The notes under the pieces: model-generated
Told to the model about the DNA's origin: nothing
The model's input: the letters and a program-made list of their open reading frames with translations, nothing else
Databases searched by the model: none
NCBI RefSeq assembly: GCF_037572775.1
Contig: NZ_JBBHKA010000001.1
Location: forward strand, 1-64,000
Length of the DNA: 64,000 nucleotides
Reading direction: 5' to 3'
DNA from: Ramlibacter sp. PS4R-6
Lineage (GTDB): Bacteria; Pseudomonadota; Gammaproteobacteria; Burkholderiales; Burkholderiaceae_C
In this document: one piece after another, positions 28,992-42,457 of the stretch
How the letters are laid out: every line of letters starts with the position of its first letter
Numbering within the stretch: position 1 is the stretch's first letter
Program-made: the position numbers and the translations under genes

Positions 28992-29822
28992 ATGCCCTGG
29001 CATGCACGCCTTCGACTCGACTACTCGCGCGAAGGCGGCCGCACCGTGGCGCGGCACGCGCACGAAGGGCCGCTTCGCATCCTGCAGACCCTGTATCCCG
29101 AGGGCGACGCGATCGCCCACAACGTGCTGGTGCACCCGCCGTCGGGCCTCGTCGGCGGCGACACGCTGGACATCGCCGTGCACGTGCGCGAGGGCAGCCA
29201 CGGCTTCGTGACGACGCCGGGCGCCGCCCGCTTCTACCGCAGCGAAGGCGAGCCCGCCATGCAGCGCGCACACCTGCGGCTCGATACCGGCGCGCGGCTC
29301 GAATGGCTGCCGCTCGAAGCGCTGGCGTACAGCGGCTGCATCGCGGAAAACCGCATCGAACTCGACCTGGCGCCCGGCGCCGAGATGATGGGCTGGGACA
29401 TCGCCGCGCTCGGCCTGCCCGCCGCGGAGCAGCCCTTCAAGCAGGGCTTGTTGCTGCAGCACCTCGAGCTCGAAGGCCAGTGGCTCGAACGCGGCCGCAT
29501 CGACGCGAACGATGCGCGCCTGATGGACGGCCCCCTGGGCCTGGCCGGCCGCCGCTGCCTGGCCACGCTGTTCTTCGCGAGCGGTTCGGACATCGCGGAT
29601 GCGCGGCGCGAGCAGGCGCTGGAGCTCGCGAACGAAGCCCTTGCGGCCTGCGATGCGGTTGTGAGCGCCGGCGCCACCGCGCCCGGCCCGCGGGTGATCG
29701 TCGTGCGCGTGCTGGCCGACGTCGTCGAGCCCGCGATGAACCTGCTGAAAGCCATCCACGCCGCGTGGCGCCCGGCCCTGTGGGACCAGCCTGCGATCGC
29801 CTCGCGGCTGTGGGCGCTCTAG
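28992..29822 (+). CDS. ureD: Urease accessory protein UreD
   Basis: A 276-residue UreD-family protein that, with UreF and UreG, forms the complex loading nickel into apo-urease. Family marks include GPLRILQTLYPEGDAIAHNV near the N-terminus, PPSGLVGGDTLDI, VTTPGAARFYRS, EWLPLEALAYSGCIAENR, MGWDIAALGLPAAEQPF and the Arg-rich C-terminal AMNLLKAIHAAWRPALWD. It is encoded about 9 kb from ureABCEFG, separated by the S9 peptidase, a zinc-ribbon protein gene and the urt operon. The ribosome binding site is weak. Confidence 0.95.
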   Translation: MPWHARLRLDYSREGGRTVARHAHEGPLRILQTLYPEGDAIAHNVLVHPPSGLVGGDTLDIAVHVREGSHGFVTTPGAARFYRSEGEPAMQRAHLRLDTGARLEWLPLEALAYSGCIAENRIELDLAPGAEMMGWDIAALGLPAAEQPFKQGLLLQHLELEGQWLERGRIDANDARLMDGPLGLAGRRCLATLFFASGSDIADARREQALELANEALAACDAVVSAGATAPGPRVIVVRVLADVVEPAMNLLKAIHAAWRPALWDQPAIASRLWAL

Positions 29823-31798
29823 CGCAGGTGCTTCGCCAGGAACTGGTCGATGCGCTGCCAGAACTCCACCTCGTGTTCCAGCAGCCAGCCGCCGTGGCCT
29901 TCGTCGGAATACTCGAGGTACTCGGGCGCCGTACCGGCGGAGCTGACCGCGGCGCGGAACTTGCGCTCGTGGTCGATGGGCACGCGCACGTCGGCGACGC
30001 CGTGGATCAGCAGCAGCGGCGTCTTGATGCGGCTGGCTTGCGCCAGCGGCGACGTCGCCTGGAGCTGCGCCGCGTCCTTCTCCCGGTCGCCGACCAGCAG
30101 CGGCATCCCGTAGCGCTTCCAGCCGTTGTTGAAGTCGCTCCACGTGATGGAGTACATCAGCTCGATGTCGGTCACGCCGGCGATGCTGATCGCGCAGCGC
30201 CAGCTCTCGGGGTGGCGCACCGTGCCCATCAGCGCGGCATAGCCGCCGTAGCTGCCGCCCATGATGCAGGCCTTGTCGGCGTCGGCCCAGCCCTGCGCGG
30301 CGGCCCACTTCAGCGCGTCCTGCAGGTCGTCCTGCATCGACAGGCCCCACTGCTTCAGCCCCGCCTTGAAGTGGCTGTAGCCGTAGCCCTCGCTGCCGCG
30401 GAAATCCGGTTCGACCACGAGGTAGCCGCGCGATGCGAGGAACTGCGCGTCGCCGTTCCAGCTGGTCTTGGCGCCGCGCAGCCACGGCCCGCCGTGCACG
30501 AGCACCACCGTCGGCAGCTTCCGGCCCTGCGCCGCGCCGGGCGGATGCGTGACCACCGCGGGGATCTCCAGGCCGTCGCGCGCCTTGTAGCGGTGGAAGC
30601 TGCGCGTGCCCTGCGTCGCCTCGTCCACCCACGGCCGCGCGGCGGCGATGCGCTTCATCGACATGTCCTGCGTGTCGAGCAGGAAGAACTCGCCCGGCTG
30701 GCGGTCCGACTTGCTTTCGACGACGACGGCCCGCGCGTCCACGCACTTGCCGCAGTGCAGCCGGTTGCTGCGCCCGGGCAGCGCCTTGTCGACGCCGGCC
30801 TGCAAGGTGCGCAGCTTCCTGTCGAACCAGTAGCTCGCGCCCTGCTCCATGAGGAAGTGCAGGCCGAGGAACTGGCCGCGGTGCGTCTGCAGGCGCGGCT
30901 CCAGGTCGAAGCCCTGCACCGAGACGAGCGGCTCGGGCTCGGGCTGCTTCCTGTCGGCGTCGAACCGGAAGAGGGCCTCGGTGCCGGCCGCGCCGTGCGG
31001 AGCCGCGACATACAGCGTGCCGCCGGCGTCGACGAACACGGGCCGGAAGCCTTCGCTGCGGTACTTGCCGAAGTCGCCGATGCGCTCCCACTCGCGCGAG
31101 TCGCCGCGCCGCCACCACACGTGCCGGCGGTTGCCCACATAGGCCGTGACGGCGCGCGGCTCGCCCTTCGCGTCCATCAGCCAGTCCTGCGCGCCTTCGG
31201 GCGCGCCTGCGCTCAGGAGGCGCTTCTCCCCCGTGGAGGTGTTGAGGCGATACAGCGATACCGAGATGAGGTCCCAGCCCGCGTCCCACTTCGATTGCCC
31301 GACGATGATGTCCGGCGAGCCGTCTTCCACGGTGTCGACGAAGTCCCACTCCCAGGTGAGGATGCGCGAGATGACGCCCGTCGCCGCCGAGATCGTGTTG
31401 CTCACGCGGTGGATCAGCTGGCGGAAATCGCTGCCGTCGCGGTTGACGGCATACAGGCCGGGCATCTTGTTCTGGTCGCCCATGGCGCGCTTGAGGTCGA
31501 CCGTGGAGAAGACCAGGCGCTCGTCGTTTACCCAGCGCACGTCGCTGATGTCCGATCCCGCGATGGCGGCGACGACCTTGGGCGGGCCCAGGGGCGCAAG
31601 CTCCATCACGGCCAGCTGCACGCGCCCGCCGTCGGTCGGCACGGCAGCGGCCAGGTGGCGGCCGGATGGCGAGACCGCCACTTCGCTGAGGAAAGGCTTG
31701 CGGAAGAAGTTTTCGGCGCTCGCCGGCTGCGCGGCGTGCGCGGCGGCGAATGGCAGGCAGATGGCGGCGAGAAAGGCACTCGCCCAGCGACGGATCAT
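29819..31798 (-). CDS. S9-family serine peptidase (prolyl oligopeptidase/acylaminoacyl-peptidase type), exported
   Basis: A 659-residue protein from an ATG preceded by GGGGAG, with signal peptide MIRRWASAFLAAICLPFAAA. A seven-bladed beta-propeller N-terminal region (about 40-400) leads to an alpha/beta-hydrolase domain. The nucleophile elbow is MGGSYGGYAALMG (Ser near 514), the acid is in HGVADVRVPIDHE (Asp near 601) and the base is in SDEGHGGW (His near 634). WLRGAKTSWNGDAQFLASRG and VVEPDFRGSEGYG are typical of the S9C group. Export suggests periplasmic peptide hydrolysis. Its stop shares CTAG with ureD. It sits inside the urea region but has no evident urea role. Confidence 0.93.
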   Translation of the reverse strand: MIRRWASAFLAAICLPFAAAHAAQPASAENFFRKPFLSEVAVSPSGRHLAAAVPTDGGRVQLAVMELAPLGPPKVVAAIAGSDISDVRWVNDERLVFSTVDLKRAMGDQNKMPGLYAVNRDGSDFRQLIHRVSNTISAATGVISRILTWEWDFVDTVEDGSPDIIVGQSKWDAGWDLISVSLYRLNTSTGEKRLLSAGAPEGAQDWLMDAKGEPRAVTAYVGNRRHVWWRRGDSREWERIGDFGKYRSEGFRPVFVDAGGTLYVAAPHGAAGTEALFRFDADRKQPEPEPLVSVQGFDLEPRLQTHRGQFLGLHFLMEQGASYWFDRKLRTLQAGVDKALPGRSNRLHCGKCVDARAVVVESKSDRQPGEFFLLDTQDMSMKRIAAARPWVDEATQGTRSFHRYKARDGLEIPAVVTHPPGAAQGRKLPTVVLVHGGPWLRGAKTSWNGDAQFLASRGYLVVEPDFRGSEGYGYSHFKAGLKQWGLSMQDDLQDALKWAAAQGWADADKACIMGGSYGGYAALMGTVRHPESWRCAISIAGVTDIELMYSITWSDFNNGWKRYGMPLLVGDREKDAAQLQATSPLAQASRIKTPLLLIHGVADVRVPIDHERKFRAAVSSAGTAPEYLEYSDEGHGGWLLEHEVEFWQRIDQFLAKHLR

Positions 31799-31948
31799 CA
31801 CGGTAGCTCCCCAGGGGTCCCGCACGGATGCTAGCTCAGCCGTGGGCCGGGAGAGTCTATTCGGGGGAGGGTCGTGGAAGCCGGCGAGGGCTCATGCGCC
31901 CGCGCGCCGCGGGCGGAACCCGCGAAAAAGTCACGCCGCGTGCAGCGG

Positions 31949-32262: not shown

Positions 32263-32958
32263 TCAAATCGCCACGAGCTCGCGCACGCCCTGCGCATCCA
32301 TCTCCTGCCCCAGGCCGCGCGCGATGAACTCGCCGCGCTGCATCACGAGGAATTCGTCGGCGAGGTCGCGCGCGAAGTCGTAGTACTGCTCGACCAGCAG
32401 GATCGCCATGTCGCCGCGGTCGGCGAGCATGCGGATCACGCGGCCGATGTCCTTGATGATGGACGGCTGGATGCCCTCGGTCGGCTCGTCCAGGATCAGC
32501 AGGCGCGGCCGGGCGGCGAGCGCGCGCGCGATCGCGAGCTGCTGCTGCTGGCCGCCGGAGAGGTCGCCGCCGCGCCGCTTGAGCATCTGCGCCAGCACCG
32601 GGAAGAGCTCGAACAGCTCCGGCGGGATGGGCTCGCCCGCGGCGCGGTACGCCATCCCCATGCGCAGGTTCTCCTCCACCGTCAGCCGCGCGAAGATCTC
32701 GCGGCCCTGGGGCACGTAGCCCATGCCGGCGCGGGCGCGCTCGTAGGGCGTGCGCGTGGTGATCGGCTTGCCCTCGAATGCCATCGTGCCGGACTTGATG
32801 GGCACCAGGCCCATGAGCGACTTGAGCAGCGTGGTCTTGCCCACGCCGTTGCGGCCGAGCAGCACCGTCACCTGCCCCGGCTTCGCCTCGAACGACAGGC
32901 CGCGCAGGATGTGCGAGCCGCCGTAGTACTGGTTGACGTCCTTGACCGACAGCATCAT
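32263..32958 (-). CDS. urtE: Urea ABC transporter ATP-binding protein UrtE
   Basis: A 231-residue LivF-type ATPase, with Walker A GRNGVGKTTLLKSLMG, Q loop VPQGREIFARLTVEENL, signature GGDLSGGQQQQLAIARALAA and Walker B LLILDEPTEGIQPSI, plus switch His replaced by the family's VEQYYDF. The motif QGREIF and the C-terminal FLVMQRGEFIARGLG match UrtE. The ATG overlaps the urtD stop as ATGA. It is the last urt gene; UrtD and UrtE form the ATPase pair of the high-affinity urea importer. Confidence 0.95.
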   Translation of the reverse strand: MMLSVKDVNQYYGGSHILRGLSFEAKPGQVTVLLGRNGVGKTTLLKSLMGLVPIKSGTMAFEGKPITTRTPYERARAGMGYVPQGREIFARLTVEENLRMGMAYRAAGEPIPPELFELFPVLAQMLKRRGGDLSGGQQQQLAIARALAARPRLLILDEPTEGIQPSIIKDIGRVIRMLADRGDMAILLVEQYYDFARDLADEFLVMQRGEFIARGLGQEMDAQGVRELVAI

Positions 32959-33815
32959 CGCCCCAGGTAGACCTCGATCACGCGCTCGTCCGCCTGCACC
33001 TGCTCGAGCGTGCCTTCGGCCAGCACCGAGCCTTCGTGCAGCACCGTGACCTTCTCGGAGATCAGCTGGATGAAGTTCATGTCGTGCTCCACGACCAGCA
33101 GCGAGTGCTTGCCCTTGAGCGACACGAAGAGTTCCGCCGTGCGCTCGGTTTCCTCGTCGGTCATGCCGGCCACCGGTTCGTCCAGCAGCAGCAGCTTGGG
33201 GTCCTGCATCAGCAGCATGCCGATCTCCAGCCACTGCTTCTGGCCGTGGCTCAGCTCGCCGGCCATGCGGTCCACGCTGTCGGTGAGGTGGATGGTGTGC
33301 AGCACCTCCGACAGGCGGTCGTCCTGCTCGCCGTCCATGCGGAAGAACACCGAAGCGCGCACGCCCTTGTTGGTCTTGAGCGCGAGCTCCAGGTTCTCGA
33401 ACACCGTGAGCTGCTCGAACACCGTGGGCTTCTGGAACTTGCGGCCGATGCCCATCTGGGCGATGTCGGCCTCCTTGTGGCGCAGCAGGTCGATGGTGCT
33501 GCCGAAGAACACCGTGCCTTCGTCGGGGCGCGTCTTGCCCGTGATGATGTCCATCATCGTGGTCTTGCCCGCGCCGTTGGGGCCGATGATGCAGCGCAGC
33601 TCGCCGGGGGCGATGTCCAGCGACAGCTTGTTGATCGCCTTGAAGCCGTCGAAGCTGACGCTCACGTCCTCGAGGTACAGGATGCGGCCGTGCGAGACGT
33701 CGACCTCGCGCTCGCGCACCGGGTGGGCGAAACCGGCGGCGCGCCCGCCCGATTCCGTGCGCCCGCGCAGCACCTTGTGGCGCTGCGCGCCTGCTTCCAT
33801 CAGGTCGGGCGTCAT
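32955..33815 (-). CDS. urtD: Urea ABC transporter ATP-binding protein UrtD
   Basis: A 286-residue LivG-type ATPase. An N-terminal extension of about 45 residues (MTPDLMEAGAQRHKVLRGRT) precedes the ABC core. Walker A is GPNGAGKTTMMDIITG, signature AGELSHGQKQWLEIGMLLM, Walker B KLLLLDEPVAGMTDEE and switch VVEHDMNF. LSHGQKQWLEI in place of LSGGQ is typical of UrtD. Start and stop overlap urtC and urtE by ATGA, showing translational coupling along the operon. Confidence 0.95.
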   Translation of the reverse strand: MTPDLMEAGAQRHKVLRGRTESGGRAAGFAHPVREREVDVSHGRILYLEDVSVSFDGFKAINKLSLDIAPGELRCIIGPNGAGKTTMMDIITGKTRPDEGTVFFGSTIDLLRHKEADIAQMGIGRKFQKPTVFEQLTVFENLELALKTNKGVRASVFFRMDGEQDDRLSEVLHTIHLTDSVDRMAGELSHGQKQWLEIGMLLMQDPKLLLLDEPVAGMTDEETERTAELFVSLKGKHSLLVVEHDMNFIQLISEKVTVLHEGSVLAEGTLEQVQADERVIEVYLGR

Positions 33816-34966
33816 GCGCGTTTTCCCCTGAACTTCTTCGCCAGCCCCACGACGCCTTCGGGCAGGAACAGCGTGACAGCAATGAACAGTGCGCCCAGGA
33901 AGTACAGCCAGAACTCGGGCGCGAAGACGGTGAGCCAGCTCTTGGCGCCGTTGACGATGAAGGCGCCGAGGATGGGGCCGACCAGCGTGGCGCGGCCGCC
34001 GACCGCGGCCCAGATGGCGATCTCGATCGACTGCGCCGGGCTCATCTCGCTGGGGTTGATGATGCCCACCTGCGGCACGTACAGCGCGCCGGCCACGCCG
34101 CACATCACGGCCGACAGCGTCCAGATCGCGAGCTTGTAGCCCACCGGGTTGTAGCCGCAGAACATCACGCGCGACTCGGCGTCGCGGATGGCCTGCAGCA
34201 CGCGGCCGAACTTGCTTTGCACCAGCCAGCGCGCCATGAGCAGGAAGGCCAGCAGCACCACGCCGGTCACCACGAACAGGCCCATGCGCGTCTGCTGCGA
34301 GGCGATGGTGAAGCCGAAGATGCGCTTGAAGTCGGTGAAGCCGTTGTTGCCGCCGAAGCCGGTCTCGTTGCGGAAGAACAGCAGCATGGCCGCGTACGTG
34401 AGCGCCTGCGTGATGATCGAGAAGTACACGCCCTTGATGCGCGAGCGGAAGGCGAAGAAGCCGAAGACGAACGCGAGCAGGCCGGGCACCGCGACGACGA
34501 GGAACAGCATCGCGACCGGGCTGTCCGACAGGCTCCAGTGCCACGGGAACTGCTTCCAGTCCAGGAACACCATGAAGTCGGGCATGTCGCTCTTGTACTG
34601 GCCCTCGCGGCCGATCTGCCGCATCAGGTACATGCCCATCGCGTAGCCGCCGAGCGCGAAGAACAGCCCGTGGCCCAGCGACAGGATGCCGGTGTAGCCC
34701 CAGATCAGGTCCATGGCCAGCGCGCAGATGGCGTAGCACATGATCTTGCCGATGAGCGCCACGGCGTAGTCGCTCATGTGGAACACGCTGCCCTCGGGCG
34801 CCACGAGGTTCATGAGCGGCGCGATGGCGCACACGGCCACGAGCGCGATGAGGAAGAAGGTCCAGCCGGCTTTCGTGAAGAGCGGCTTGCGCGCGGGCAG
34901 CAGCACCGGCATCGGCTTGTAGCCCTGCATCTTCTCGACCAGCTCCTGCGGGGCGCGGTCCATCAT
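33812..34966 (-). CDS. urtC: Urea ABC transporter permease UrtC
   Basis: A 384-residue LivM-type permease with about ten hydrophobic segments. Family marks are DLIWGYTGILSLGHGLFFAL, FRSRIKGVYFSIITQALTYA, FRNETGFGGNNGFTDFK (the UrtC GGNNG motif), AIRDAESRVMFCGYNPVGYK (EAA-like cytoplasmic loop) and AVGGRATLVGPILGAFIVNG. The ATG overlaps the urtB stop (ATGA); a second ATG follows at once. It forms the channel with UrtB. Confidence 0.95.
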   Translation of the reverse strand: MMDRAPQELVEKMQGYKPMPVLLPARKPLFTKAGWTFFLIALVAVCAIAPLMNLVAPEGSVFHMSDYAVALIGKIMCYAICALAMDLIWGYTGILSLGHGLFFALGGYAMGMYLMRQIGREGQYKSDMPDFMVFLDWKQFPWHWSLSDSPVAMLFLVVAVPGLLAFVFGFFAFRSRIKGVYFSIITQALTYAAMLLFFRNETGFGGNNGFTDFKRIFGFTIASQQTRMGLFVVTGVVLLAFLLMARWLVQSKFGRVLQAIRDAESRVMFCGYNPVGYKLAIWTLSAVMCGVAGALYVPQVGIINPSEMSPAQSIEIAIWAAVGGRATLVGPILGAFIVNGAKSWLTVFAPEFWLYFLGALFIAVTLFLPEGVVGLAKKFRGKRA

Positions 34967-36534
34967 GCCTCCGCGCTGCGGCCGCGCGCGGCGAACAGGC
35001 CCTGCGGACGCTTCTGGATGAAGACGATGATGATGACGAGCACGGCGATCTTCGCGAGCACGGCGCCGGCCCAGCCTTCGAGGAACTTGTTCAGGATGCC
35101 CAGGCCGAGCGCCGCGTACACCGTGCCCGCCAGCTGCCCCACGCCGCCGAGCACGACGACCATGAACGAGTCGACGATGTAGCCCTGGCCGAGGTCGGGG
35201 CCGACGTTGCCGATCTGGCTGAGCGCGCAGCCGGCCAGGCCGGCGATGCCGGAGCCCAGCGCGAAGGCATAGGTGTCGATGCGGGCCGTGTTCACGCCCA
35301 TGCACGAGGCGATGGGGCGGTTCTGCGTGACGCCGCGCACGAACAGGCCCAGGCGCGTCTTCGCGATCATCAGGGCCATCCCCGCCAGCACCACGAAGGC
35401 GAAGGCGACGATGAAGATGCGGTTCCACGGCAGTTGCAGGTTGCCCATGACTGCGACGCCGCCGGACATCCAGCTGGGGTTCTCCACGCCGACGTTCTGC
35501 GCGCCGAAGACCGTGCGCACCAGCTGCTGCAACGCAAGGCTGATGCCCCAGGTGGCTAGCAGCGTCTCGAGCGGTCGGCCGTAGAGGAAGCGGATCACGC
35601 CGCGCTCGAGGATCGCGCCGACGATCGCCGAGGCGAGGAACGCGACCGGGACCGCCGCGATGAGGTACCAGTCGAAGGAGCCGGGCAGGTACTTGCGGAA
35701 CAGGCCCTGCACGACGTACGTGGCGTAGGCGCCGATCATCATCAGCTCGCCGTGCGCCATGTTGATCACGCCCATCAGGCCGTAGGTGATGGCCAGGCCC
35801 AGCGCGACGAGCAGCAGGATCGAGCCGAGGCTGATGCCGGAGAAGACGGCGCCGATGCGCTCGCCCCAGGCGAGCGACGCCTCGACGCTGCGCAGCGACA
35901 GCTCCAGCGCCGACTTCACGTCGCTCTCGGTTTCGCCCTTCATGCGTTCGATCAGGATGGACTTCACCGCGGGCGAGCGGCTGGCCGCGAGCACCTTCGC
36001 CGCTTCGAGGCGCTTGGCCTTGTCGGCGCTGTTCAGGAGGGCGGCGGCGCGCACCAGCGCGAGCTGCTCGCGGATCGCGGCGTTGGGCTCGGCGGCCAGG
36101 GCCTTCTCGATCATCGGCAGCTTGGATTCGTCCGGGTCCTTCTGGAAGTCCTTCACCGCCGCCATGCGCAGCGCGTCGTCCTTCGAGAAGAGCTTGAGCG
36201 ACGACAGCGCGGAATCGATCTCGCCGCGCATGCGGTTGTTGGTCACCACGTCTTCCGCGTCGGCGGGAACGGCGGCTTCGGCGCCGGTGACGGGGTCGGT
36301 GCCCTTGCCGTCCCGGACGATGAACAGCTTGTCGCCCGCGGCCTTGACGGAGTCGTCGGCGAGCGCCTGCAGGAACGCCGCGGTCTTGTCGTCGGCCGTG
36401 GCGATGGCCTTGCCCAGCGCCTCGATGCGGGCGTCGGATTCGCCGATGGCGATGGCCTTGGCTTCCTCGGCCGTCAGCGCGTGGGCCTGTGCTGCCGCGA
36501 ATACCGCCACCAGGAAAAGGATTCGTTTGAACAT
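34963..36534 (-). CDS. urtB: Urea ABC transporter permease UrtB
   Basis: A 523-residue protein with a signal peptide (MFKRILFLVAVFAAAQAHA) and a long periplasmic helical region (about 20-215, HEAT-like, including AMRGEIDSALSSLKLFSKDD-type helices) ahead of the LivH-type permease core. This two-part form is usual for proteobacterial UrtB. The membrane part contains GLAITYGLMGVINMAHGELM, RPLETLLATWGISLALQQLV and RIDTYAFALGSGIAGLAGCA. The gap to urtA is 120 bases and holds a REP-like doublet, whereas the later urt genes overlap by 4 bases. Confidence 0.95.
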   Translation of the reverse strand: MFKRILFLVAVFAAAQAHALTAEEAKAIAIGESDARIEALGKAIATADDKTAAFLQALADDSVKAAGDKLFIVRDGKGTDPVTGAEAAVPADAEDVVTNNRMRGEIDSALSSLKLFSKDDALRMAAVKDFQKDPDESKLPMIEKALAAEPNAAIREQLALVRAAALLNSADKAKRLEAAKVLAASRSPAVKSILIERMKGETESDVKSALELSLRSVEASLAWGERIGAVFSGISLGSILLLVALGLAITYGLMGVINMAHGELMMIGAYATYVVQGLFRKYLPGSFDWYLIAAVPVAFLASAIVGAILERGVIRFLYGRPLETLLATWGISLALQQLVRTVFGAQNVGVENPSWMSGGVAVMGNLQLPWNRIFIVAFAFVVLAGMALMIAKTRLGLFVRGVTQNRPIASCMGVNTARIDTYAFALGSGIAGLAGCALSQIGNVGPDLGQGYIVDSFMVVVLGGVGQLAGTVYAALGLGILNKFLEGWAGAVLAKIAVLVIIIVFIQKRPQGLFAARGRSAEA

Positions 36535-36654: not shown

Positions 36655-37941
36655 TTACACCTTCGACTTGCCGTCCGGCTCGTCCTTCTTCTTGTCGTTG
36701 CCTTCGATGAAGGGCGACCAGGGCTTGGCCTTGACCGGGCCGGGCGTCTTCCACACCACGTTGAACTGGCCGTCGGCCTTCACTTCGCCGATGAACACCG
36801 GCTTGTGCAGGTGGTGGTTCTTGGCGTCCATCGTGGCGACGAAGCCGCTCGGCGCCTTGAAGGTCTGGCCGGCCATCGCGGCGATGACCTTGTCGGTGTC
36901 CGTGCTCTTAGCCTTCTCGACGGCCTGCTTCCACATGTACACGCCGATGTAGGTGGCTTCCATCGGGTCGTTCGTCAGCGGCTTGTCCTTGTGGCCGGCG
37001 ATGCCCTTGGTCTTGGCGTAGTCGCCCCACTTCTTGGTGAACTCGGTGTTGGTCGGGTTCTTGACCGACATGAAGTAGTTCCACGCGGCCAGGTGGCCCA
37101 CCAGCGGCTTGGTGTCGACGCCGCGCAGTTCTTCCTCGCCCACCGAGAAGGCGACGACCGGCACGTCCTTGGCCTTCAGGCCCTGGTTGCCCAGTTCCTT
37201 GTAGAAGGGCACGTTGGAGTCGCCGTTGATCGTGGAGATCACCGCCGTCTTCTTGCCTTCGGAGCTGAACTTCTTGATCTTGCCGATGATGGTCTGGTAG
37301 TCGGAGTGGCCGAAGGGCGTGTACTCCTCCATGATGTCGGCCTCGGCGACGCCCTTGGACTTGAGGAACGCGCGCAGGATCTTGTTCGTGGTGCGGGGGT
37401 ACACGTAGTCGGTGCCGAGCAGCACGAAGCGCTTGGCGCCGCCGCCTTCCTTGGACATCAGGTATTCCACGGCGGGGATGGCCTGCTGGTTCGGCGCGGC
37501 GCCCGTGTAGAACACGTTCTTCGACAGCTCTTCACCCTCGTACTGCACGGGGTAGAACAGCAGGCCGTTCTGCTCCTCGACCACCGGCAGCACCGACTTG
37601 CGCGACACGGACGTCCAGCAGCCGAAGATCACGGCGACCTTGTCCTGCGTCAGGAGCTGCTTGGTCTTCTCGGCGAACAGCGGCCAGTTGGAGGCCGGGT
37701 CCACGACCACGGGCTCGAGCTTCTTGCCGAGCACGCCGCCCTTGGCGTTGATCTCGTCGATCGCCATCAGCACGGTGTCCTTGAGGACCGTTTCCGAGAT
37801 GGCCATGGTGCCCGACAGGCTGTGCAGGACGCCGACCTTGATGGTGCCCTTGTCCTGGGCTTGCGAGAGGGTGGTCGCGCCCAGGCCAAGGCCGAGGGCG
37901 ATGGAGGCGGTGAGGAGTTTGAGGTTCCCTCGACGATTCAT
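36655..37941 (-). CDS. urtA: Urea ABC transporter substrate-binding protein UrtA
   Basis: A 428-residue periplasmic receptor starting from an ATG with CGGAGC upstream. Signal peptide LLTASIALGLGLGATTLSQA. The mature protein begins QDKGTIKVGVLHSLSGTMAI, with FGCWTSVSRKSVLPVVEEQN, LFYPVQYEGEELSKNVFYTG, LLGTDYVYPRTTNKILRAFL and TYIGVYMWKQAVEKAK, all hallmarks of UrtA. It is the first gene of the urt operon, with a 57-base leader downstream of a predicted sigma-54 promoter. It binds urea, and possibly related short amides, with high affinity. Confidence 0.97.
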   Translation of the reverse strand: MNRRGNLKLLTASIALGLGLGATTLSQAQDKGTIKVGVLHSLSGTMAISETVLKDTVLMAIDEINAKGGVLGKKLEPVVVDPASNWPLFAEKTKQLLTQDKVAVIFGCWTSVSRKSVLPVVEEQNGLLFYPVQYEGEELSKNVFYTGAAPNQQAIPAVEYLMSKEGGGAKRFVLLGTDYVYPRTTNKILRAFLKSKGVAEADIMEEYTPFGHSDYQTIIGKIKKFSSEGKKTAVISTINGDSNVPFYKELGNQGLKAKDVPVVAFSVGEEELRGVDTKPLVGHLAAWNYFMSVKNPTNTEFTKKWGDYAKTKGIAGHKDKPLTNDPMEATYIGVYMWKQAVEKAKSTDTDKVIAAMAGQTFKAPSGFVATMDAKNHHLHKPVFIGEVKADGQFNVVWKTPGPVKAKPWSPFIEGNDKKKDEPDGKSKV

Positions 37942-38009
37942 GTGGCTGCTCCGAAGTGAAAGAGGTAGTGGGGAAATGCGAACCCCGTTGGCCGGGGTCA
38001 CTTGTCAAC

Positions 38010-38024
38010 GCAAGGCGTGTGCCA
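38010..38024 (-). promoter_or_regulatory. Predicted sigma-54 promoter of urtABCDE
   Basis: On the minus strand TGGCAC-ACGCC-TTGC matches the -24/-12 sigma-54 consensus (TGGCAC-N5-TTGC) exactly in sequence and spacing. The predicted transcription start is about base 37998, some 57 bases upstream of urtA. Confidence 0.8.
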
Positions 38025-38040
38025 TCCCCCCATCCGGGTT

Positions 38041-38057
38041 TGCACCGACGTGGCGCA
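38041..38057. promoter_or_regulatory. NtrC-like binding palindrome between urt and ure
   Basis: TGCACCGACGTGGCGCA differs from the enteric NtrC site TGCACCAnnnTGGTGCA at the spacer-edge base after TGCACC and at one base of the right half (GGCGCA for GGTGCA). It lies 98 bases upstream of the ureA -24 element and 17 bases upstream of the urtA -24 element. A weaker left half-site GCACCAAAATG lies near 38097. Confidence 0.55.
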
Positions 38058-38154
38058 CGGTTTGGCGGCGCGCCCGCGCACGAAATGGAGGCGGACGCAC
38101 CAAAATGCGTTGTCGGCGAGCGATCGCGGGGCTCTTGCGCACTGCGAAGCTGCA

Positions 38155-38169
38155 TGGCACATGATTTGC
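38155..38169 (+). promoter_or_regulatory. Predicted sigma-54 promoter of ureABCEFG
   Basis: TGGCAC-ATGAT-TTGC matches the sigma-54 -24/-12 consensus in sequence and spacing. The predicted start is near 38181, leaving a leader of about 16 bases that contains the ribosome binding site GCAGGAGG before the ureA ATG. Confidence 0.8.
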
Positions 38170-38196
38170 GACATCGGATTTGGTGCAGGAGGCACG

Positions 38197-38499
38197 ATGG
38201 AACTGACGCCCCGTGAGAAGGACAAGCTGCTGATATTCACCGCCGCGCTGCTGGCGGAGCGGCGCAAGGCCAAGGGCCTGAAGCTCAATTACCCCGAAGC
38301 CGTGGCGCTGATCTCGGCCGCGGTGATGGAAGGCGCGCGCGAAGGCAAGACGGTGGCGCAGCTCATGTCCGAGGGCCGCAGCGTGCTGACGCGCGCCGAC
38401 GTGATGGACGGCGTCGCCGAAATGATTGCCGACATCCAGGTGGAGGCCACCTTCCCCGACGGCACCAAGCTCGTGACCGTCCACCAGCCCCTGCCCTGA
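38197..38499 (+). CDS. ureA: Urease subunit gamma
   Basis: A 100-residue structural subunit of full family length, starting after GCAGGAGG. It reads [20 protein letters not shown], with [39 protein letters not shown] and [11 protein letters not shown], matching UreA throughout. It heads the urease operon and sits right after the predicted sigma-54 promoter. Confidence 0.97.
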
Positions 38500-38518
38500 A
38501 CAACGAGGAGACGACAAG

Positions 38519-38683
38519 ATGAAGAACTGGCTCGCCCTTCCCGCCTTCTTCGCCGCACAGGCCTGGGCGCATTCCGGGCACGGCATGCCCGGCGAGGTGC
38601 ACTGGCACGCCAGCGACGTCGCCGGCCTCGCGGTCATCGCCGTCGGCGCCCTGCTCGCCCTGTGGCTGGCGAGGGGCGAATGA
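38519..38683 (+). CDS. His-rich single-pass membrane microprotein between ureA and ureB
   Basis: A 54-residue protein whose ATG follows ACGAGGAG at good spacing. It has an N-terminal hydrophobic segment ending in AQAWA (likely signal peptide or first membrane helix), then [16 protein letters not shown] with five histidines, then a second hydrophobic segment [17 protein letters not shown] and a short RGE tail. The AHSGHG start resembles the N-terminus of HupE/UreJ nickel permeases, but the rest of that family is absent. The stop overlaps the ureB start as ATGA, so translation is coupled. Location and histidines suggest a role with nickel or with the urease/urea machinery at the membrane; this is inference. 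Confidence 0.75.
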
Positions 38684-38985
38684 CCCCCGGCGAAATCCTG
38701 GTCGACGGCCCCGACCACGCGCTCAACCCCGGCCGCCGCACCACCACGGTGGTCGTGAAGAACACGGCCGACCGCCCGATCCAGGTCGGCTCGCACTACC
38801 ACTTCCACGAAACCAACGGCGCGCTGCAGTTCGACCGCGACGCGGCGCGCGGCATGCGCCTGAACATCGCATCGGGCACCGCGGTGCGCTTCGAGCCCGG
38901 CCAGCAGCGCACGGTGGAACTCGTCGAGTACGCCGGCGAGCGCGTGGTGTACGGCTTCCGCGGCCTCGTTCAAGGAAAGCTCTGA
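38680..38985 (+). CDS. ureB: Urease subunit beta
   Basis: A 101-residue subunit starting [20 protein letters not shown]. It has the conserved [40 protein letters not shown] and [15 protein letters not shown]. Start coupled to the microprotein gene through ATGA, stop 2 bases from ureC. Confidence 0.97.
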
Positions 38986-38987
38986 CC

Positions 38988-40705
<1,718 letters not shown>

Positions 40706-40706
<1 letters not shown>

Positions 40707-41209
40707 TGATCCAGGCGACCAAGCTCCTCGCGCGCGGCGCGGGCCTCGCACCCGCGCTGGTCAAGCGCGCACCCTTCGTCACGCTGGACTGGGACACGCG
40801 GCAGAAGAGCCGCTTCGACTTCACCGATTCGAACGGGCGCCACGTGGGCGTGTTCCTGCCGCGCGGCAGCGTCGTGCGCGGGGGCGACGTGCTCGTCGCC
40901 GAAGACGGCTCGTTCATCCGCATCGTCGCGGCCGACCAGCCGGTGCTGGTGATCACCGCGTGCAAGGAACACGGCTCGCCCTTCGACCTGACGCGCGCCG
41001 CCTACCACCTGGGCAACCGGCACGTGCCCATCGAATTGAAGCCCGACCACCTGAAGATCGAACCCGACCACGTCCTCGCGGACATGCTGCGCAGCATGCA
41101 CCTGGACGTGACCGAAGCGAACGCGCCCTTCGAGCCGGAAGGCGGGGCATATGCGAGCGGCGGCCACCATGGACACGCGCACGAGCACCACGGCCACGAC
41201 CACCATTGA
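40706..41209 (+). CDS. ureE: Urease accessory protein UreE (nickel chaperone)
   Basis: A 167-residue metallochaperone whose ATG overlaps the ureC stop by one base (TGATG). The peptide-binding N-terminal domain ([12 protein letters not shown]-like, [16 protein letters not shown]) is followed by the UreE C-terminal domain with [20 protein letters not shown]. The tail [16 protein letters not shown] is rich in nickel-binding histidines. It delivers nickel to UreG and urease. Its 3' end overlaps the ureF start by 41 bases. Confidence 0.96.
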
Positions 41210-41837
41210 CGGCCTGCTGCCGCTGCTGTGGCTGGCGTCGCCGGCGCTGCCGGTGGGCGGGTTCTCGTATTCCGAAGGGCTCGAAGCGGCCGTCGATGCG
41301 GGCCTCGTCACCGGCGAAGCGCAAGCCGCCGACTGGCTCGTGCACCAGTTGCACCTGAACCTCGCGCGCGCGGACCTCGTCGTCGTGCGCAACGTGGTCG
41401 CCGATCCCGCGCAGGCCGATGCGATGAACGCCTGGGTGCTGCGCACGCGCGAAACGTCGGAGCTGCGCCAGCAGACCGTGCAGATGGGACGCTCGATGCT
41501 GGAATGGCTGAAGTCCGTGGGGCGCGCCGTCCCGCATGCCGGGCCGCTGGCCTATCCCGTTGCGTGGTCCCTCGCCGCCTCGGGCTTCGAACTCGGCGCG
41601 CGCGATGCGCTGAACGCCTTCGCTTTCGGCTGGGCCGAGAACATGGTGCAGGCCGCCGTGCGCGTCGTGCCGCTTGGGCAAAGCTCGGGCCAGCGCATCC
41701 TGTCGCGGCTGGCGCAGGAGATTCCCGCGGCGGTCGACGCCGCGTTCGCGGCCGAAGAACCGCAGGCCTTCAGCCCCATGCTCGCGATCCTGTCGTCGCG
41801 CCACGAAACCCAATACTCACGCCTGTTCCGCTCATGA
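41169..41837 (+). CDS. ureF: Urease accessory protein UreF
   Basis: About 222 residues from the preferred ATG ([20 protein letters not shown]); a start six codons earlier is possible. Conserved UreF parts are [69 protein letters not shown] and [18 protein letters not shown]. UreF bridges UreD-urease and UreG in the activation complex. It overlaps ureE at the start and ureG by ATGA at the end. Confidence 0.95.
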
Positions 41838-42457
41838 ACCGTACCAAGAAGCTCCCCCCGCTGCGCGTGGGCATCGGCGGCCCCGTCGGCTCCGGCAAGA
41901 CCACGCTGCTCGAAAAACTCTGCAAGGCCATGCGCGACGAGTGGGACCTCGTCGCCATCACCAACGACATCTACACCAAGGAAGACCAGCGCCTGCTCAC
42001 CGTGAGCGGCGCGCTGCCCGCGGAACGCATCATGGGCGTGGAGACGGGCGGCTGCCCGCACACCGCCATCCGCGAGGACGCATCGATCAACCTCGAGGCC
42101 ATCGACCGCATGCTGGAGCGCTTCCCCGACGCCGACATCGTGTTCGTCGAAAGCGGCGGCGACAATCTCGCCGCCACCTTCAGCCCCGAGCTGTCGGACC
42201 TGACGATCTACGTGATCGACGTCGCGGCCGGCGAGAAGATCCCGCGCAAGGGCGGGCCCGGCATCACCAAGAGCGACCTCTTCGTCATCAACAAGACCGA
42301 CCTCGCGCCGCACGTCGGCGCGAGCCTGCAGGTGATGGAAGAGGACACGAAGCGCATGCGGCGCGACAAGCCCTTCGTGATGACGAACCTGAAGACGCAG
42401 GACGGGCTTGCGGAAGTCGTCGCCTTCATCGAGCGCAAGGGCCTGCTCAAGGGGTGA
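41834..42457 (+). CDS. ureG: Urease accessory protein UreG (GTPase)
   Basis: A 207-residue SIMIBI-class GTPase. P-loop [18 protein letters not shown] (near 13-30), [14 protein letters not shown], the nickel motif METGGCPH-type [29 protein letters not shown] and the guanine-specificity motif [12 protein letters not shown]. It couples GTP hydrolysis to nickel insertion. It is the last gene of the urease operon; no terminator is visible in the 14 bases before the convergent response-regulator gene. Confidence 0.97.

Follow-up and report, generated by a model that had tools for sequence, protein, structure and literature searches.

Predicted divergent sigma-54 promoters between the urea transporter and urease genes of Ramlibacter sp. 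PS4R-6

Genes and sigma-54 elements of the urtA-ureA gap

A gap of 255 bases separates the divergent ATG codons of urtA and ureA in the window, that is, the whole stretch of 64,000 nucleotides of Ramlibacter sp. PS4R-6 that was analysed. The ATG of urtA lies at 37941-37939 on the minus strand and that of ureA at 38197-38199 on the plus strand, and both translations start as expected. The open reading frame of urtA (36655-37941, minus strand) codes for the substrate-binding protein of a urea ABC transporter, with homologues that reach 93% identity along almost its entire length; urtB, urtC, urtD and urtE (32266-36534, minus strand), recognised as open reading frames in this order and named from their translations, lie downstream of it. 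On the plus strand, ureA (38197-38499), an open reading frame for the urease gamma subunit with relatives of up to 94% identity, is followed by ureB, ureC, ureE, ureF and ureG (38662-42457), also assigned from open reading frames and order, and all of these urease genes were named from translations. Each gene row presumably constitutes one operon. A ureD match is found at 29124-29729 (plus strand), separate from ureABC and beyond urtABCDE. A gene resembling peptidases (29819-31825, minus strand; named from its translation) intervenes.

Promoters of the sigma-54 type carry GG at -24 and GC at -12, at the usual spacing and flanked as in TGGCAC and TTGC, and transcription from them starts about 12 bases past the GC of the -12 element. 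The preliminary description had reported TGGCAC-N5-TTGC once per strand in the gap, at 38024-38010 (minus) and 38155-38169 (plus), and both positions were confirmed. These are the exact matches TGGCACACGCCTTGC (38010-38024, minus strand), which points toward urtA, and TGGCACATGATTTGC (38155-38169, plus strand), which points toward ureA; both are kept in relatives (see below). By the distance rule, the urtA transcript is predicted to start at about 37998 and the ureA transcript at about 38181, the latter with a leader of about 16 nt and with AGGAGG at 38187-38192. No sigma-70-type promoter was found in the interval 37800-38400.

The two gap elements are the sole exact matches to TGGCAC-N5-TTGC in the 64 kb window. 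When one mismatch was allowed, the window contained five matches for 6.09 expected; the relaxed pattern is thus at chance level, and the evidence for the promoters lies in the exact match, the position and the conservation of the elements. Across the whole genome (3,843,442 bases) the exact pattern occurs six times and the reversed pattern, used as a control, not at all. Two of the six fall in the 255-base gap; dinucleotide shuffling of the gap, repeated 2000 times, never gave two exact matches. The other four, with genes named from translations, are located before a type IV pilin-like gene, within an ntrB-like gene, at an apparently intergenic position and in a galU-like gene. The one in the ntrB-like coding sequence (G000:C1:2061301-2061315; L015, own genome) stands 244 bases before the ntrC match and may be either a chance occurrence or an internal promoter.

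Conservation of the paired elements in relatives

The set of relatives comprised 103 regions upstream of urtA: 17 from named ureA loci (of 80), 30 from UrtA loci of the family (drawn from the 212 genomes with a match among 299) and 56 from further stretches, chosen at one per genus, one of which has only 41 bases. In 32 of the 103, our own included, urtA stands head-to-head with a ureA no more than 1000 bases away. Within 300 bases of urtA, the best match on that side in these 32 gaps scored 10/10 in 29, 9 in two and 6 in one; among the 71 regions that are not head-to-head, and over the same distance, six reached 10, two reached 9 and 63 had at most 8. Both sides scored at least 8/10 in 29 of the 32 gaps, and in these 29 the median spacing between the GC and the start codon was 67 for urtA and 46 for ureA. 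Exact sites numbered 35 over the 32 gaps, against 0.06 in shuffles. One locus, L042, is head-to-head yet has neither site. The preliminary description had named a lack of conservation in related genomes as a ground for refutation; in the head-to-head gaps the -24/-12 elements facing urtA and ureA proved instead to be strongly conserved, with comparable spacing to the start codons.

In the genus itself, 30 loci were read, from the 49 genomes with UrtA among 60. Four of these loci are head-to-head, with a urtA-side score of 10/10 in each and ureA-side scores of 10, 10, 10 and 9; in the other 26 the urtA side scored at most 8. On a UrtA tree of 46 rows, nine changes of site presence were counted, three of them forced by well-supported branches; the labels for site presence are clustered on this tree, and the rows are therefore not independent samples.

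It could be argued that one element alone is a working promoter, the other operon using another start or the ure genes being transcribed by read-through. The ureA side scores lower (at least 9 in 20 of the 32 gaps, vs 31 of the 32 for the urtA side) and the predicted ureA leader is short in the window, as a single promoter would allow. However, the ureA side still reaches at least 8 in 29 of the 32 gaps, as it does in 25 of 26 loci in which a kinase or regulator gene is the neighbour (within the last 420 bases; see below), and in the window the ureA element is exact, with a Shine-Dalgarno sequence after it at a usual distance. We regard a single working promoter as unlikely.

Where ureD precedes ureA, as in 33 of the 80 named loci, a site of at least 9 within 400 bases was found in just seven. 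In L084 (Paraburkholderia) and in L085, L087 and L092 (Burkholderia), in which ureD precedes on the same strand, an exact sigma-54 site stands ahead of ureA by 104-116 bp (115-116 bp in the three Burkholderia loci); L091, also Burkholderia, has a 9/10 site.

NtrC-type sites and the predicted control of the two operons

Sites bound by NtrC follow the consensus TGCACC-N5-GGTGCA, and the same type is seen in this genome at glnA, which lies beside ntrBC and was used as a within-genome positive control: its upstream region contains TGGCACAGAACCTGC (9/10) and several GCACCA/TGGTGC dyads. The two PII genes, both expected NtrC targets, showed no sigma-54 site of at least 8 in 400 bp, and this positive control missed. 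In the gap, the preliminary description had pointed to a palindrome close to the NtrC consensus at 38041-38057. Such a dyad, TGCACCGACGTGGCGCA, is present there with one mismatch to TGCACC-N5-GGTGCA, centred 51 and 132 bp from the predicted starts of urtA and ureA, respectively, but it is imperfect and little above chance: at up to two mismatches the window has five matches to the consensus for 5.68 expected, and a dyad of at least 10/12 letters was reached by 77 of 2000 shuffles of the gap. Moreover, its letters vary within the genus. When the four head-to-head gaps of the genus were aligned, the -24/-12 elements were invariant or nearly so and the palindrome was not kept, whereas the block ACGCACCAAAA (38095-38105, with the half-site GCACCA at 38097-38102) is invariant; the surer NtrC-type element is therefore placed at 38095-38105, at about 106 and 77 bp, respectively, from the predicted starts of urtA and ureA. 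The dyad at 38041-38057 is a possible second NtrC site.

Over the 32 head-to-head gaps, GCACCA/TGGTGC half-sites numbered 64, against 10.35 (sd 3.33) in shuffles, roughly a sixfold excess, and dyads of at least 10/12 letters numbered 15, against 1.04; for neither count did any of 200 shuffles reach the observed value. An exact half-site occurs in 27 of the 32 gaps and is absent from five, and most dyads stand at enhancer distance, 60-150 bp, from each of the two predicted starts.

The genome has one match to RpoN and one protein above the curated cut-off for NtrC (679.9 vs 558.6 bits), which also exceeded the cut-off of a second NtrC model (643.2 vs 620). The sigma-54 activator domain gave seven genome matches, of which four are strong. 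Besides NtrC, the strong ones are GlrR-like, AtoC-like and NorR/PrdR-like, each below its cut-off as scanned, that is, as matched stretches, two of which were without their ends. With three further strong activator domains in the genome, and an imperfect NtrC-type dyad in the window, both sigma-54 promoters could be real and one or both be driven by one of these proteins, for example in response to urea instead of nitrogen status. Against this, half-sites of the GCACCA type seen at glnA are strongly enriched in the gaps, one of them being invariant in the four gaps of the genus, and the same genes fall in a Burkholderia ntrC mutant, according to the part of that study at hand (PMC5491218); an activator other than NtrC is accordingly quite improbable. 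A chance origin of the TGGCAC-N5-TTGC pair in a gap rich in G+C, as the chance-level count of one-mismatch hits in the window might suggest, is scarcely credible in view of the six exact matches in the genome with none for the reversed control, the 2000 gap shuffles without two such matches and the similar placement conserved in relatives.

The main proposal of the preliminary description, a divergent sigma-54/NtrC promoter pair for urt and ure, is supported by the conservation of the elements, by the RpoN and NtrC matches, by the sites at glnA and by the enrichment of half-sites. From its sequence, the gap very probably holds two divergent sigma-54 promoters, controlled by NtrC, that serve the urt and the ure genes. 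At nitrogen shortage, NtrB would phosphorylate NtrC, which would bind enhancers between the promoters, most surely at the GCACCAAAA block (38097-38105) and possibly also at the dyad 38041-38057. Bound NtrC would then loop to sigma-54 RNA polymerase held in the closed state at both -24/-12 elements and open both, so that urtABCDE, for uptake, and ureABCEFG, for urease, would be made together. By analogy with known systems, we infer NtrC binding, a set of enhancers common to both promoters and induction by nitrogen limitation.

Control of urea genes through NtrC and sigma-54 is already known from Burkholderia, Herbaspirillum and Pseudomonas, and the proposed mechanism fits all three. In the accessible parts of the report on Burkholderia cenocepacia H111, like our strain a betaproteobacterium, the genes for urea uptake and those for urease are all down in an ntrC mutant (ureA by 4.4, ureC by 5.2 and urtB by 5.9 log2 units; ureA, ureC, ureE, ureF, urtB and urtD down by 4.2 to 7.8 log2 units), and sigma-54 and NtrC share the urease cluster as one of their targets (PMC5491218). 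Those parts of the report describe no head-to-head urtA/ureA gap (PMC5491218), and in four named Burkholderia loci, unlike here, ureD rather than urtA precedes ureA on the same strand. For Herbaspirillum seropedicae SmR1, a sigma-54-dependent promoter was noted upstream of urtA, as found here, and the authors suggest Ntr control of urt and ure; there, however, urtABCDE lies upstream of the ure cluster, and the text available from that source describes no head-to-head pair (PMC3093359). The PurtA promoter of Pseudomonas putida resembles the urtA side of the gap in that it is among the nitrogen-responsive sigma-54 promoters that need NtrC, and as a nitrogen-limitation promoter it was employed as a biosensor; as far as the available part of the source goes, it differs in being a single promoter, and the locus tags of urtA (PP_4841) and ureD (PP_2842) are distant (PMC8050072). 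Computed NtrC regulons of Proteobacteria likewise include ureABC and urtABCDEF as targets, with the urea genes given, in the portion of the source consulted, for Alteromonadales, Oceanospirillales, Rhizobiales and Rhodobacterales but not for betaproteobacteria (PMC5343134).

A literature search, mostly at the level of listings, returned no recognised description of a head-to-head urtA/ureA sigma-54 pair, of a kinase at the place described below or of a hairpin in the urtA leader. Our results extend the range of a known control circuit to more Burkholderiales, and suggest that urea uptake and hydrolysis are wired to one nitrogen switch through gene order.

The urtA leader dyad and the divergent arm in relatives

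The dyad GTGACCCCGGCCAACGGGGTTCGC (37978-38001, minus strand), able to form a hairpin, lies where the urtA transcript is predicted to begin and where fold energy peaks in relatives. As the +1 position is expected about 12 bases past the GC, the dyad would lie at or across the first transcribed base. When folds of 32 bases were compared with shuffles, the urtA side gave a mean z of -1.64 at offset 8 past the GC (39 leaders), with values of 0.00 at -15 (42 leaders) and -0.17 at 16 (38 leaders) on its flanks. Genomes chosen later gave -1.76 at offset 8 (11 leaders), 0.14 at -15 (12) and -0.30 at 16 (11). There was no peak on the ureA side (31 stretches, which partly extend into coding sequence; z 0.22 at offset 8) or on the kinase side (16; z -0.02).

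The place of the dyad is similar across relatives while its letters change, and a MAFFT alignment of the leaders leaves the stems out of register. Own leaders folded better than half chimeras of two species in 41 of 49 cases, so that the arms of the dyad seem to drift together. At least five pairs can form in 49 of 50 leaders, a count made without shuffle control and given no weight here. A search of 37500-38700 against Rfam gave two matches, both far below the gathering scores. Folding of sense and antisense strands was alike (means -9.10 and -8.95, p 0.55, 50 leaders), which is compatible both with an RNA hairpin and with a DNA dyad; the feature, precise in its placement, may thus be a hairpin in the RNA or an operator in the DNA.

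In six of 20 long stretches from relatives, urtA and ureA are divergent but 5.5-8.6 kb apart, and in those of these loci that were read closely a large hybrid histidine kinase is encoded between them. A LuxR-type response regulator stands beside the kinase, recognised by Pfam in L206 and by reading of the translation in L198. The hybrid kinase beside ureA, with a Cys-rich linker, was seen at L206:3950-8520 and also in L210 and L198. The N-terminal domain of the kinase has a match (E 1e-80 or better) in 165 of 299 genomes of the family and in 40 of 60 of the genus; it gave no match in our own genome, and the kinase none in the four genus genomes with the head-to-head order, one of which, G345, is 79% complete. 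Among 56 genomes with the kinase, 45 have their best match among those listed and on the contig of urtA, and in 38 of the 45 the kinase is encoded on the strand of urtA, upstream of it and within 30 kb.

The N-terminal domain had no match in Pfam, NCBIfam or PDB sequences. A model built from 20 sequences (mean pLDDT 71.7, pTM 0.68) gave CodB (E 6.3e-9, TM 0.72) and Mhp1 (E 9.5e-9, TM 0.67; both TM values by target) as best matches in a fold search; both are NCS1 transporters, and the domain, placed by fold search alone, is predicted to have the NCS1-transporter fold. From the position of its gene, our guess is that the kinase senses urea.

The sigma-54 element at urtA tracks the absence of the kinase rather than the head-to-head order. 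Of 29 genomes that lack the kinase, 24 had a site of at least 9 within 300 bases upstream of urtA, vs one of 56 with it (85 genomes and 86 loci; L173, with just 41 bp upstream, was dropped). Eight loci without the kinase have the urtA site although ureA was not found adjacent, some on short stretches (L132, L140). Five genomes have neither the site nor the kinase, namely G174, G252 and G062, from one genus, and G112 and G040 (76 and 74% complete); one genome, G133, has both, with a weaker kinase match (1.8e-163). A check was made on 13 previously unread genomes without a kinase match, chosen later, 11 from the family list and two from the genus list: the urtA side scored at least 9 in 12, the single miss being L253, and ureA was head-to-head in nine. 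The contrast exists within one genus, in which six genomes combine head-to-head urtA/ureA with the urtA-side element and 40 of 60 encode the transporter-like kinase.

A swap of regulators, in which the kinase would replace sigma-54 control, was considered and rejected because the pair of sites stays between ureA and the kinase, and it is the arm that changes. In 26 loci the nearest upstream neighbour of ureA, among the genes sought, is the kinase (24) or the regulator (two). Over the final 420 bases, a stretch that can enter the kinase frame, sites of at least 8 face ureA in 25 of these loci and the kinase in 21; in a few loci the site facing ureA is more than 110 bases from it. In 23 kinase-ureA gaps, sites of at least 9 numbered 23, against 0.48 in shuffles. 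Enrichment of NtrC-type half-sites is weaker in the kinase-ureA gaps (nine vs 4.82, reached by 13 of 200 shuffles), and dyads of at least 10 letters numbered four vs 0.61, a value that none of the shuffles reached.

A tentative reading, somewhat short of an even chance in our judgement, is that of a conserved sigma-54 divergon with an exchangeable arm, in which ureA is fixed and the other arm is either urtA or the kinase and LuxR-type regulator, which would add a second layer of control; the direct urtA arm, with a hairpin at +1, would set uptake apart. The two-component system lies upstream of urtA, and on this exchangeable-arm reading its kinase would respond to urea or to some related compound of nitrogen; the hairpin would shield the mRNA for uptake, or else mark the place of an operator, and uptake would in this way differ from urease despite the common switch.

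A different geometry was seen before ureA in L030 and L031, in which two sigma-54-like elements stand back to back with touching -24 ends (plus 352/minus 351 in L030, plus 353/minus 352 in L031, in the last 420 bases), so that no space is left for an enhancer between them.
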